This document shows positions 37,199 through 42,693 of a DNA stretch of 42,711 bases, piece by piece. The translations under genes were made by a program, and so were the position numbers. The first letter of the stretch is position 1, and each line of letters opens with the position of its first letter. Location: the NCBI GenBank assembly GCA_947463235.1, contig CANHST010000002.1:1-42711 (forward strand), in the 5' to 3' direction. The DNA is from Acidimicrobiaceae bacterium (GTDB lineage: Bacteria > Actinomycetota > Acidimicrobiia > Acidimicrobiales > Ilumatobacteraceae). Under the pieces are notes generated by a model, which ran no database searches, was not told where the DNA came from, and worked only from the letters and a program-made list of their open reading frames with translations.

Positions 37199-38704
37199 TC
37201 AGTGCTGGTGGTCGTGGTGGTCGTGATCGTGATCGTGGTCGTGATCGTGATCGTGATCGTGGTCGTGGTCGTGGTCGTGATCGTTGTTGCCGAGCAGCAG
37301 CGTGCGGTCGATGGCCGCACCCTTGTCGTCCACCACTTCCACGTGCTCGAGCAGCCAGTCGAGGGCCTTGGTCTTCTTCAACTGGGCGGCGAGGTCGGTG
37401 ACCGCGTCGTTGTCCTCGTAGGCCCTCTTCACCTGGCTGGCCTTCTGACGCACCTGCACGGCGATGCGCACGTACTCGAGGTCGAGGTCCTCCTCGGACA
37501 CGTCGAGGCCTTCAGCGGCAGCCACGGCACGCAGGGCGAGATCCACCCGCACGGCCTTCTCGCTCTGCACGCGCAATGCGCCCACGAACGAGTTGGCGTC
37601 CTGACCCGTGGCTTGCAGCCACTGGTCGATGTTGATGCCCTGCTGCTGGAACTGTTGCACCGTGTTCTGCACGCGAGCCTGCAGGTCGCCCTGCACCATG
37701 CTCTCGGGCACGGCGTCCTCCACCAGTTCGGCCAACGCCGAGGTGGTGCGCTCGACGAACAGGTTGCGTGCCTGGTTCAGCTTGGCGGTGCCGATGCGCT
37801 CGGCCACAGCGCCGCGCCACGCTTCCACCGTGTCGTGCTCGCCGAGGTTGTCGGCGACCCACTCGTCGGTGATCTCGGGCAGCTGCATCTCCTGCACATT
37901 GGTGACGGTGACGGCGAAGTCGGCCGGCTCGTCGGTGCCGCTGGGGTTCGCGGTGAACGCAAGGTCGGCACCCTTGGAAGTGCCGATGATCTGATCGTCG
38001 AAACCTTCGGCGACCCAACCCTTGCCCACTTCGTAGAGCCAATCCTCGGTGTTGAGGCCGGGAACCGGCTCGCCGTCGCGGCTGGCTGCCAGCGTGAGGG
38101 TGACATGGTCGCCGGCGGCTGCCGGACGATCCACATCGACGAGGCTGCCCTGGCGGCGACGCTCGGCATCCACCGCTTCGTCGATCTCTTCTTCGGAGGC
38201 CACCGGGCTGGGCAACTCCACGCGGAGACCGCCGTAGCCGGGCACCGTGATGACGGGGCGCACTTCACAGATGGCCTCGAACGACACCGGGCCGCTCTCC
38301 GTGCCACCGGTGATGTCGAGCTCGGGGGTGGCGATCAGGTCGATGTCGTGCTCGCGCACTGCCTTGGCGAGGTACACCGGCAGGGCGTCGCGCAACGCTT
38401 CTTCACGAGCAGCGGCCAGACCGATACGGGCCTCGAGCACCTTGCGCGGCACCTTGCCCGCACGGAAGCCGGGCAGCCGGGCCTCTTTGCCGATCTTGCG
38501 GAACGCCCGATCGATGTCGTGGTCGAACTCGTCCTCGTCGATCGTGACGTCGAGCTTCACCAGTTGGCGGGGGGCGGGGGCAACGACTTCGCCGCCGTCG
38601 AACGCCTCAATGGCGTCGTCGTCGGTGGTCTCGGGAGCATCGTCGTCGATCTCCTCGAGGACGTAGGCGGGCGTGTCGTCGAACGGTGCAATCGTGCTTT
38701 TCAC
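37199..38704 (-). CDS. tig: Trigger factor with Asp-His-rich C-terminal tail
   Basis: This ribosome-bound chaperone and peptidyl-prolyl isomerase has 501 residues. The ribosome-docking motif GFRAGKVP is at 79-86, about 36 residues further in than in E. coli, because of an acidic N-terminal extension (about 1-46). A PPIase-like domain covers about 195-280, with the helical C-domain after it. The last 27 residues hold 14 His and 12 Asp in alternation. The GTG start at 38704 has no ribosome-binding site but lies 9 bases after a TAGAGT box. An internal start nearer VKLDVTID would remove the acidic extension; none has a better signal. clpP follows with coupled translation. Confidence 0.93.
37202..37282. 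repeat. Hexameric repeat encoding the Asp-His tail of trigger factor
   Basis: Alternating GTG and GTC/ATC triplets (plus-strand reading) repeat for 81 bases. They encode (Asp-His) x 11 followed by HDHQH at the end of trigger factor. Short-period repeats of this kind can change length by slippage. Confidence 0.85.
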
Positions 38705-39157: not shown

Positions 39158-40327
39158 ATGTCCTTCATCTCGCTGCGTCATCGATTCCCCGGCTGCTCCG
39201 ACGGGTGGGCCCGATTCGACGGCCCCGCCGGCACCCAGGTCGTGGACTCCGCCATCACGGCGATGACCACGTGGCTCACCGACGGATCCAACGGTTGCGG
39301 TGGCGGCTACTTCTCTGCAGCGATCAAGGCCGACGAACTGGTGGATCGCACTCGCGCCACGGTGGGTCGACTGTTCAACGCCGATCCGAACGGTGTGACC
39401 TTCGGACCGAACATGACCACGCTCACCTTCGCCTTCTCCCGTGCCATCGGCTCCACCCTGCAGCCCGGCGATCGCATCGTGGGCACTCGCCTCGACCACG
39501 ACGCCAACGTGAGCACCTGGATGCGCGCTGCGCAGACCGCCGGCGCAGAGCATGTGCTGGCCCCGTTCGACCCGATCACCGGCACCCTGCCGCCCGAGAA
39601 CGTGATCGCCCTCATCGACGAGCGCACCAAGTGGGTGACGCTGCCCGGCGCCAGCAACCTGCTGGGCACGGCCCCCGACCTGAAGCCCATCATCGACGCC
39701 GCCCATGCGGCGGGCGCCAAGGTGTTCATTGATGCCGTGGCGCTCGCGCCGCACCAGCAGATCGACATCACGGCACTCGACTGCGATGCCCTGGTGAGCT
39801 CGCCCTACAAGTGGTACGCCCCGCACTCGGGAATGCTGTGGTGCCGTCCCGAACTGCTGCAGGCGCTGCCGGTGTTCAAGGTGCGCCCGTCGCACGACGA
39901 GGGCCCGTCGCGGTTCGAGACCGGCATGCCGAACTTCGAAGCCATCGCCGGCATCGAAGCCACCGCACGTTTCCTCATGGAAGAGGGCATGAGCAACGTA
40001 GAGGCCGCCGAGCGCGAACTGTTCGCTCCTCTGCTGCATGGCCTGCAGGGAATGCCCGGCGTCACGGTGTACGGCGTGCAGGGCCTCGAAGGCCGCACCC
40101 CCACCGCAGCGTTCACGGTGCAGGGCCACACACCCGCAGCCGTGGCCGAGGCATTGGCCAACGCCAAGGTGGCGGTGTGGGACGGCCACAACTACGCCAT
40201 TGAGGTGGTCGGCCAGCTCGGCCTCGCCGACACCGGTGGTGTGGTCCGGGCAGGCATCTCCCGTTACCTCGAGCCGAGCGACGTCGATCGCTTGCTGAAC
40301 GTGGTGGAAGGTCTCGCTGCGCGCTGA
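39158..40327 (+). CDS. Class V aminotransferase / cysteine desulfurase-like protein (TIGR01976-like)
   Basis: This 389-residue PLP-dependent fold-type I enzyme has the PLP Lys K218 in VSSPYKWYAPHSG, the pyridine-nitrogen Asp D192 in VFIDAVALAPH, and an N-terminal FDGPAGTQV. It resembles the VC1184-type 'cysteine desulfurase family' branch. None of its four cysteines (12, 47, 209, 229) lies in the usual late active-site loop, so a sulfur-mobilising role is doubtful. It may act on a different amino acid substrate. The ATG at 39158 lies within a frame open far upstream, but only this start begins a conserved domain. Confidence 0.82.
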   Translation: MSFISLRHRFPGCSDGWARFDGPAGTQVVDSAITAMTTWLTDGSNGCGGGYFSAAIKADELVDRTRATVGRLFNADPNGVTFGPNMTTLTFAFSRAIGSTLQPGDRIVGTRLDHDANVSTWMRAAQTAGAEHVLAPFDPITGTLPPENVIALIDERTKWVTLPGASNLLGTAPDLKPIIDAAHAAGAKVFIDAVALAPHQQIDITALDCDALVSSPYKWYAPHSGMLWCRPELLQALPVFKVRPSHDEGPSRFETGMPNFEAIAGIEATARFLMEEGMSNVEAAERELFAPLLHGLQGMPGVTVYGVQGLEGRTPTAAFTVQGHTPAAVAEALANAKVAVWDGHNYAIEVVGQLGLADTGGVVRAGISRYLEPSDVDRLLNVVEGLAAR

Positions 40328-40339
40328 CCCGCGACGCGT

Positions 40340-40355
40340 TGGGACTTTGGTCCCA
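40340..40355 (+). promoter_or_regulatory. DosR/DevR-like palindrome
   Basis: TGGGACTTTGGTCCCA holds a GGGACT...GTCCC palindrome that matches the mycobacterial DosR core GGGACTWWAGTCCC at 13 of 14 positions. Its centre is 65 bases before the copper-protein ATG. A weak TACTGA at 40377-40382 would put a start point about 42 bases from the box centre. It could alternatively be a short 6-base-stem hairpin ending the upstream gene. Confidence 0.5.
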
Positions 40356-40394
40356 GCGGCCGCACCCTTCCTGCCCTACTGACTCCTCGACACA

Positions 40395-40408
40395 GCCAGC
40401 ACGCTGGC
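40395..40408 (+). promoter_or_regulatory. Inverted repeat just before the copper-protein start
   Basis: GCCAGC-AC-GCTGGC is a perfect 14-base inverted repeat ending 4 bases before the ATG. In RNA it could form a small hairpin over the initiation region, where no ribosome-binding site is visible. Confidence 0.35.
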
Positions 40409-40412
40409 AGCC

Positions 40413-41789
40413 ATGAGCAAGGATGACCGGTCAGTACTCAGTTGGCTCGCGTTCGTGGCAGCACTTGCTGCCCTGTGCGTGGCGATCTTCGGCCTCAAGG
40501 ACAACGGAAGTTCGTCCGGCAGCGCCGCAGGTGGTGGTGGAGGCGCCAAGCCCACCGTCAACGTCACGTTGAAGGACTTCGTGTTCGACCCTGCCACGAT
40601 CACCATCCCCACGGGTGGCGCCACGCTGCACCTGATGAACGGTGGAGCGACGATCCACAACTTCAAGGTGGCCGAACTCGGCATCACCAGCATCGACATC
40701 GCCGCCGGTGCCTCGTACGACCTCAACATCCCCGCCACCCCGGCAGGCACGTACAAGGTGATCTGCCCGCAGCCCGGCCATGAGGGCGCCGGCATGGTGG
40801 GTTCGCTGGTGGTCAGCGACTCGGCCAGCGGCGACGGCGGCAGCGCAGGTGGCACCCCCACCACGACGCCCGTCGACGCGGGCCACGATGCTTCATCGAA
40901 CTCGGCAATGGATGCCCGCATGCTGGCCGCAGCGCAGCTGTACCCGGCCAAGACCGCCGGCCACGGTGGCGATCTGGCCACCTTCACCGTCGCCGCCGAT
41001 GGCTACAAGGAGTTCGTGGTCGAGGCGAAGATCGTCGACTGGGAAGTGGAGCCGGGCAAGATCGTCAAGGCCTGGACCTACAACGGCGTGGTGCCCGCCC
41101 CGGAGATCCATGTGAGCTCGGGCGACAAGGTGCGCATCATCTTCAAGAACGCCCTACCGCAGACCACCTCGCTGCACTTCCACGGCATCAGGGTGCCGAA
41201 CGTGATGGACGGTGTGGACCCGTACACCGAGGCCCCCACCACGCCGGGCGGCGAGCACATCTACGAGTTCACGGCAAAGGGCCCGGCCGTGGGCATCTAC
41301 CACTCGCACCACAATGCGCAGGAGCAGATCCCGAACGGCATGTTCGGCGCCCTCACCATCGATGAGATCCCCACCCCGCAGGTGCTCATCGACAAGGGCT
41401 ATCCCGAGAAGCCCACCAAGAGCGTGAACATGGTGCTCAACGACGCCGGCGTGATCGGCCTCAGCCTCAACGGCAAGAGCTTCCCCGCCACCGAGCCGTA
41501 CACCATCCGAGTCGGCCAGACGATGCTGGTGAACTACATGAACGAGGGCCTGCTGGTGCACCCCATGCACATGCACCAGCCGCTCGGATGGATCATCGCC
41601 AAAGATGGCGTGCCGCTGATCACCCCGATGCCCACCGACACGCTGCTCATCGCCCCAGGCGAGCGCTACACGGTGCTCTACATGGGCACCGACCCCGGCG
41701 TGTGGGCGTGGCACTGCCACATCCTCACCCACGCCGAGACCGCCGATGGCATGCGCTACATGGTGACGGCCCTCATCGTGGAGCGATGA
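40413..41789 (+). CDS. Membrane-anchored multicopper oxidase with N-terminal cupredoxin (three cupredoxin domains)
   Basis: The 458-residue protein has a single N-terminal membrane helix (about 9-28), then a plastocyanin-like domain (46-135) with type 1 copper ligands H82, C118, H123 and M128. A Ser/Gly/Thr-rich linker follows, then a two-domain multicopper oxidase. Oxidase motifs are H255/H257 (HFHG), H297/H299 (YHSHH), H383/H386/H388 (HPMHMH) and H434/C435/H436/H440/M447 (WHCHILTHAETADGM), which give a full trinuclear set plus a second type 1 site. Domain 2 lacks the Cys that copper nitrite reductases need there, so a laccase-like oxidase is more likely. The extra cupredoxin may pass electrons. 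It is 4 bases upstream of the USP gene. Confidence 0.85.
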   Translation: MSKDDRSVLSWLAFVAALAALCVAIFGLKDNGSSSGSAAGGGGGAKPTVNVTLKDFVFDPATITIPTGGATLHLMNGGATIHNFKVAELGITSIDIAAGASYDLNIPATPAGTYKVICPQPGHEGAGMVGSLVVSDSASGDGGSAGGTPTTTPVDAGHDASSNSAMDARMLAAAQLYPAKTAGHGGDLATFTVAADGYKEFVVEAKIVDWEVEPGKIVKAWTYNGVVPAPEIHVSSGDKVRIIFKNALPQTTSLHFHGIRVPNVMDGVDPYTEAPTTPGGEHIYEFTAKGPAVGIYHSHHNAQEQIPNGMFGALTIDEIPTPQVLIDKGYPEKPTKSVNMVLNDAGVIGLSLNGKSFPATEPYTIRVGQTMLVNYMNEGLLVHPMHMHQPLGWIIAKDGVPLITPMPTDTLLIAPGERYTVLYMGTDPGVWAWHCHILTHAETADGMRYMVTALIVER

Positions 41790-41793
41790 GCGC

Positions 41794-42693
41794 ATGACCC
41801 CCCGGGCGACACGGCTCATCGTCGGTGTGGACGGCACCGAAGGTTCGGTGGAGGCACTGCGGTGGGCTGCTCATGCAGCCGCCCGCCGCGGCGCTCCGCT
41901 GCATGTGATGACGTGCGCCGAACTGCCCGTCGCCGTTGAGGCCAGCCTCATTGGCGGTGCTGTCACGACCGGCGAAGCGTTCGACGGTGTCGTCGCCGAG
42001 CACGAAGCCGTGAACCAACGGGCCGTCGCACTCGCCCGCTCGATCGGACCCGACATCATGGTCACCGGCGACACCGTGCTGGGCGCCCCCGCCTACGCGA
42101 TGGTCGGAGCATCCCACGACGACGACATCATCGTCGTGGGCGCCACGTCGCACCCCGGTCGACTCACCGAAGTACTCGGCTCCGTGGCCACCGTGGTGAC
42201 GCACCGAGCCCACTGCCCAGTGGTGGTGGTGCACGGCACCGATCGCAAGGACGCCAGCGTGGGCCGGATCGCAGTGGGGGTCGACGGCTCGGAGTGCGGC
42301 GACCAGGCCCTCATGTGGGCCATCGAGGAAGCGACGCTCTGCGGAGCGGAACTGCTGCTGGTGCATGGCTGGACCTACCCGTATCAGGGCCCGCGTACCG
42401 GAATCACCGAATCGCGCGAGGACATGAAGCTCGACGCGATGCGCACCCTCGAGGCCTGCGCACACAAGGTACGCAGCGTGGCACCCGCACTGCGGTGCCA
42501 TTCGATCATCAGCGAGGACAGCCCCGCCAAAGCCATCATCGATGCTGGCAAGGAAGCCGACTTGCTGGTGGTGGGGTGTCGCGGACACGGCGGGTTCGCT
42601 GCGCTGCTCCTGGGCTCGGTGAGCCGCACGGTGCTGCAGCATGCGTCGGTGCCCGTCGTGGTCGTTCGACATCAGTCCGCTGAGCGCCGCTAG
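41794..42693 (+). CDS. Tandem universal stress protein (two USP domains)
   Basis: The 299-residue protein has two USP domains (about 6-147 and 157-293). The second has a clean nucleotide loop, VVGCRGHGGFAALLLGSVSRTV, of the G-x2-G-x9-GS type that binds ATP. The first, VVGATSHPGRLTEVLGSVATVV, has the same shape with Pro-Gly variation. Size and two-domain layout match the DosR-controlled USPs of mycobacteria. It begins 4 bases after the copper-protein stop, so the two genes form an operon. The remaining 18 bases of the window hold no feature. Confidence 0.92.
   Translation: MTPRATRLIVGVDGTEGSVEALRWAAHAAARRGAPLHVMTCAELPVAVEASLIGGAVTTGEAFDGVVAEHEAVNQRAVALARSIGPDIMVTGDTVLGAPAYAMVGASHDDDIIVVGATSHPGRLTEVLGSVATVVTHRAHCPVVVVHGTDRKDASVGRIAVGVDGSECGDQALMWAIEEATLCGAELLLVHGWTYPYQGPRTGITESREDMKLDAMRTLEACAHKVRSVAPALRCHSIISEDSPAKAIIDAGKEADLLVVGCRGHGGFAALLLGSVSRTVLQHASVPVVVVRHQSAERR

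Follow-up and report, generated by a model that had tools for sequence, protein, structure and literature searches.

A predicted DosR/DevR-family operator in front of a multicopper oxidase-universal stress protein operon of an Acidimicrobiaceae bacterium

A short palindrome upstream of a two-gene operon was studied in a 42,711-nucleotide stretch of DNA from an Acidimicrobiaceae bacterium, which is referred to as the window at its full length. A DosR/DevR-family response regulator in all likelihood uses this palindrome as its operator and is predicted to activate the operon that encodes a multicopper oxidase (MCO) and a universal stress protein (USP). The genomes show directly that the box exists, that it is conserved and coupled to the MCO, and that a regulator and a kinase are encoded. 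The preliminary description, which had proposed DosR-type control of a copper oxidase-USP operon, is largely supported, with corrections. The features of the region are the following.

39158..40327, forward strand: cysteine-desulfurase-like aminotransferase gene (TIGR01976 above cut-off), outside the circuit
40341..40354, forward strand: DosR/DevR-type box GGGACTTTGGTCCC, the primary site (exact match, kept before MCO orthologues)
40363..40376, forward strand: possible weak secondary DosR site CACCCTTCCTGCCC, 22 bp from the primary site
40377..40382, forward strand: -10-like hexamer TACTGA, with its TA spacing after the box in close orthologues
40413..41789, forward strand: MCO of 458 aa, putatively membrane-anchored (Pfam, copper ligands and N-terminal helix)
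41794..42693, forward strand: two-domain USP of 299 aa (two Usp domains), the second gene of the operon

The box GGGACTTTGGTCCC is present as a single copy in the window, even when three mismatches are allowed in the motif count, and does not recur exactly anywhere else in the 3.12-Mb draft genome. Agreement with the mycobacterial core GGGACTWWAGTCCC at 13 of 14 positions, as originally reported, was borne out. Compared with the full mycobacterial 20-mer consensus TTSGGGACTWWAGTCCCSAA, only 14 of 20 positions agree because the flanks of the window box deviate. The TA hexamer begins 22 nt past the box in the window, L035 and L036 and 23 nt past it in L037, which places a predicted transcription start near 40389, about 42 nt from the box centre. 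The spacing in these four close orthologues is thus compatible with the earlier suggestion of a start point about 42 bases downstream, and the box would overlap the -35 region as in a DosR regulon. The secondary site keeps its 3' half as TGCCC and is regarded as tentative because of its weak matrix score in the window itself (5.8 of 11).

Conservation of the box was analyzed across the class Acidimicrobiia, where the MCO was sought in 296 genomes and found in 64. The 66 loci that were compared comprise 60 of these 64 genomes (up to 13 kb around the gene), five further loci and the window. A box was counted where a site differing from GGGACTNNNGTCCC or its complement by no more than one base fell in the 200 bp preceding the MCO. 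Such boxes were detected in 25 of the 66 loci versus 15 matches in the remaining 755 kb. At this background rate 0.004 matches per locus would be expected, and the enrichment before the MCO exceeds 90-fold. A DosR/OsdR-consensus matrix, chosen with some sites already known and applied to related and therefore non-independent genomes, scored at least 10 in 38 of the 66 MCO promoters versus 0.9% of background windows of the same length from the same loci. The other 28 loci scored below 10, and a few loci with an adjoining regulator have no good box, L038 being an example. Common further forms in these promoters belong to the DosR/OsdR consensus type GGGACCTTCGGCCC. The identical 14-mer stands before MCO orthologues that share between 66-83% (L036, L037) and as little as 42% (L126) protein identity, and close orthologues keep it within an approximately 85-bp gap that has otherwise diverged, with one end base changed in L035 (MCO 96% identical). 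Across 44 MCO promoters a second box at 22 bp was the best of all shifts, followed by -22. In more distant families outside the class, 10 of 20 loci reached a matrix score of at least 10 versus 1% of the background.

Exact 14-mers were also found elsewhere in the class, at 29 sites in 24 genomes, where they precede not only the MCO but also dosR and pyridoxamine-oxidase-like genes. Homologous genes for a Rieske ring-hydroxylating oxygenase follow an exact 14-mer at L133:1-1416 (reverse strand) and L138:1693-3012 (forward strand), and this enzyme is a possible second conserved target. In four genomes, a family of approximately 200 aa is encoded directly 3' of an exact 14-mer, on the forward strand of L142:1634-2269, L145:1572-2171, L147:1572-2180 and L156:1586-2188; the three of these four members that were scanned had no Pfam match. 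A gene of this family and the MCO gene diverge from one box between them in G199. In L039, a contig that is labelled as a Gemmatimonadetes MAG but perhaps mis-binned, the genes for DosR, PAS kinase and MCO form a set as in Acidimicrobiia, and the kinase is preceded by a very good DosR box, tttGGGACGAAAGTCCCgtc.

The dosR-like gene that a DosR-type reading presupposes is present in the genome on contig G000:C204. Its product P0001 consists of a receiver and a LuxR/GerE DNA-binding domain, and the best solved relative is DevR (3c3w, 251 bits) followed by VraR (148 bits). P0001 and M. tuberculosis DevR are identical at 118 of 210 positions (56%), and DevR residues Asp54, Lys104, Lys179, Lys182 and Asn183 are kept while Thr205 in the C-terminal helix is replaced by Val. 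In DevR, Asp54 is the phosphorylation site and K179, K182 and N183 contact bases; Thr205 is not regarded as essential for membership in the DosR/DevR family. In a family scan, the NCBIfam models MadR and MadS scored below their cut-offs. The P0001 gene and the MCO lie on separate contigs of this genome. Among the 296 class genomes, 160 encode a DosR homologue, and the protein co-occurs with the MCO, being present in 58 of 64 MCO genomes versus 102 of the 232 others (Fisher p 4e-12). Physical linkage to the MCO within the fetched region was observed for 21 of the 66 class loci, and in more remote families of the phylum the regulator lies close to the MCO in about 15 of 20 loci, usually 0.8-1.5 kb upstream of it. 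All eight family members that were inspected have a box-like site in the regulator's own promoter, which in G240 is the exact 14-mer. Across the class, a box immediately in front of the regulator gene is not the rule, probably because this gene is often the second in its operon.

Control of the box by a protein other than the DosR homologue, either a different NarL-family regulator or a copper-responsive repressor, has to be weighed, given that at least six other NarL/LuxR-type regulators are encoded in the genome and that MCO genes in general are frequently copper-regulated. It is nevertheless unlikely: of the GerE-domain proteins encoded in the genome, the C204 regulator alone carries the DosR recognition helix AEKTVKNYVS, it is the DosR-like regulator that accompanies the MCO in linkage and co-occurrence, and the motif matches DosR/OsdR sites.

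The kinase gene on C204 is convergent with the regulator gene and its product P0002 has a PAS-HisKA_3-HATPase architecture. In PDB matches, its ATPase part is closest to DevS and its PAS part to FixL and DosP; a DosS-type heme GAF domain with an equivalent of His149 was not found in this protein. From the anticipated dosR/dosS-like pair, the DosR homologue was thus recovered, but its partner is a PAS kinase and not a heme-GAF protein of the DosS/DosT type. A comparison of 23 kinases (22 from MCO loci and the C204 kinase) revealed 10 of the GAF type, all with the DevS His149 position (H in HPPM..FLGVP; one was checked against the PDB), and 13 of the PAS type, all with His at the FixL F-alpha ligand position. 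Such an F-alpha-type His occurs also in heme-free PAS domains. The position of the FixL distal Arg220 is Leu in the C204 kinase, as read by eye. Sensing of hypoxia or nitric oxide by this kinase is plausible.

The possibility that the palindrome marks the 3' end of the transcript of the upstream aminotransferase gene, as a terminator or a 3'-end hairpin, had been named at the outset as one that would overturn the operator reading. The palindrome begins 14 nt past the aminotransferase stop and as RNA can form an 8-pair stem capped by a tetraloop (-14.4 kcal/mol), and the look-alike GGGACTTCGGTCCC at C99:5523 does resemble a terminator. However, the stem in the window is short and lacks a T run, many other sites are consensus forms of the DosR/OsdR type, and exact copies elsewhere precede dosR and pyridoxamine-oxidase-like genes. 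In the comparison, the aminotransferase is missing upstream in 20 of the 25 box-bearing loci, so that the palindrome goes with the MCO while the upstream gene changes, and the terminator reading is very unlikely. In L076 the aminotransferase gene lies downstream of the MCO. The sequence GGGACTTCGGTCCC (L003:1501-1514) was itself rejected as a box, being the core of an intrinsic terminator with a 15-pair stem and a T run. This strong terminator sits after a pilin-like gene and is a trap for box searches.

Within its own genome, the box is not enriched; GGGACTNNNGTCCC with at most one mismatch occurs 23 times versus 29 times for the reversed control. Near matches are no commoner in the genome than for the control, so that by counts alone the box is not beyond chance, and its significance derives from the conservation before the MCO in other genomes. 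The expectation of further boxes forming a larger regulon was accordingly disappointed at these control-level counts, as was that of a box before another USP: the genome contains two USP genes, and the second one, on contig C146, lacks a box even with one mismatch allowed. A DosR regulon with many boxed operons and several USPs was not found in this genome, and its other exact boxes are not conserved within the genus. The box GGGACTGAAGTCCC at L002:516-529 (G000:C38) shows ideal promoter geometry with TAGGCT 23 nt downstream and precedes a 232-aa ORF of unknown family; it was discarded as a conserved target, the pairing of box and ORF not being found in the genus. Boxes at C12 (fasciclin gene) and C252 (DUF2231 gene) were likewise rejected, having no -10-like element at the expected spacing. 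A functionless chance occurrence, with which the equal near-match counts in the genome would agree, is hardly credible and already statistically refuted because the 14-mer is kept in diverged orthologues and is more than 90-fold enriched before the MCO.

The product of the first gene of the operon is an N-terminal cupredoxin fused to a two-domain laccase-type core, and Pfam assigns the domains Cupredoxin_1, Cu-oxidase_3 and Cu-oxidase_2. Copper ligands of the N-terminal cupredoxin are H82, C118, H123 and M128, and those of the core are H255, H257, H297, H299, H383, H386, H388, H434, C435, H436, H440 and M447. All of these type-1 and trinuclear ligands are present in 44 homologues and strictly invariant with the exception of the axial M447, which is nearly so. 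The type-1 Cys resides in the second core domain as in type B two-domain multicopper oxidases, and the best sequence matches in the PDB are two-domain laccases (2zwn, 3g5w). A helix at residues 7-26 in the structure model suggests an N-terminal membrane anchor. This model has low confidence (pLDDT 64) and its fold matches were therefore used for domain order alone; the top Foldseek match is the three-domain nitrite reductase of Hyphomicrobium denitrificans (6tfo, 2dv6). Assignment as a copper nitrite reductase (NirK) was rejected. Core domain 1 has no type-1 Cys and contains HSHH at 297-300 instead, and this absence together with the laccase-type trinuclear set argues against NirK by active site; the NirK model TIGR02376 gave 47 bits versus a cut-off of 296. 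As a guess, the enzyme may oxidize Cu(I) or Fe(II) at the expense of oxygen; equally a guess, it might pass on electrons of the respiratory chain via its cupredoxin.

The USP gene starts after a 4-nt gap behind the MCO stop. The predicted composition of the operon, a three-cupredoxin copper oxidase followed by a two-domain USP of about 300 residues, was confirmed in its domains and in the length of 299 aa. The USP had also been taken as a hallmark of DosR regulons; its two Usp domains are present, but a USP directly after the MCO is confined to the window and 5 of the 65 other loci, all of them close relatives of the window. The conserved target is the MCO, to which the USP was added at the level of the genus. 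Elsewhere in the window, the reverse strand at 37199-38704 encodes a trigger-factor-like protein that ends in an extended His-Asp repeat (NNDHDHDHD...HHDHQH), which might serve as a metal-binding tail.

From these observations we infer binding, the direction of regulation, the signal and the substrate of the oxidase. The C204 PAS histidine kinase would sense a low-oxygen, NO or redox signal and phosphorylate the DosR homologue at its Asp54-equivalent. The phosphorylated regulator would bind 40341-40354 as a dimer, perhaps with the weak second site 22 bp downstream, where it would overlap the -35 region and aid RNA polymerase in starting near 40389. The output would be a membrane-anchored, outward-facing copper oxidase, to which the USP is added in this genus. 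Points against an operator are the lack of genome-wide enrichment, the flank mismatch, the separate contigs, the exchange of Thr205 for Val and the lack of a GAF domain. A broader proposal is put forward tentatively: the MCO could be a core and perhaps ancestral DosR output across non-mycobacterial Actinomycetota, in a kinase-DosR-MCO circuit whose heme-GAF and FixL-like PAS sensors are swapped and which, at low O2 or with NO, would direct reducing equivalents via a tethered cupredoxin to a laccase-type site.

DosR has mostly been studied as a dormancy switch of tuberculosis. A widespread DosR-MCO circuit of environmental actinobacteria, with an oxygen-reducing copper enzyme under the control of this regulator family, would offer a clean comparative system for the original purpose of DosR signalling, in which the exchange of sensors (heme-GAF versus PAS) can be studied while regulator, operator and target remain together. 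It also provides the cupredoxin-fused oxidase with a testable physiological setting. A search of the open-access literature, with subscription papers outside its scope, for DosR/DevR together with a multicopper oxidase, Acidimicrobiia or Thermoleophilia yielded nothing relevant, and the claim of a copper oxidase as a new effector holds in that the MCO appears undescribed in this role. The novelty seems to lie in the way a DosR-type regulator and a cupredoxin-fused multicopper oxidase have stayed coupled, apparently as a small dedicated circuit, and this coupling points to a little-known output of low-oxygen and nitric-oxide signalling.

The window system resembles the DosR/DevR system of M. 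tuberculosis in its regulator (56% identical, with Asp54 and the base-contacting Lys and Asn residues kept), in the palindromic GGGAC-N4-GTCCC core, in the -35-overlapping geometry and in the USP target; relatives of the window also share the 22-bp tandem sites, and some have DevS-like GAF kinases beside the MCO in the manner of DosS/DosT. DevR promoters have a proximal site that overlaps the -35 element and a weaker adjacent secondary site that is filled cooperatively (PMC3029386). The window system differs from that of M. tuberculosis in its PAS kinase, in a small circuit without a visible large regulon, in a multicopper oxidase as the conserved target and in the loss of Thr205. A DosR-type response outside mycobacteria, which had been presented as novel, is supported here but has a precedent in OsdR/OsdK of Streptomyces coelicolor, where OsdR recognizes DevR sites of M. 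tuberculosis and has USP genes under its control among about 50 likely target genes or clusters (PMC5069765). Both systems have a non-mycobacterial DosR orthologue and USP targets, and the OsdR consensus AGGGCCGATCGGCCCT (PMC5069765) resembles the GGCC-type boxes in MCO loci. Unlike the window kinase, OsdK is similar to DevS/DosT, and the OsdR paper names no copper protein (PMC5069765). The oxidase itself resembles the type B two-domain laccases (2zwn, 3g5w) in its HxH, HxH, HxxHxH and HCHxxxH ligands, its two-domain core and the type-1 Cys in the second core domain, but has an additional N-terminal plastocyanin-like cupredoxin and a putative membrane anchor. The low-confidence model shares with the nitrite reductase of Hyphomicrobium denitrificans the apparent order of an N-terminal cupredoxin and two further cupredoxins, from which the MCO is distinguished by a core domain 1 without type-1 Cys and by its laccase-type trinuclear ligands.
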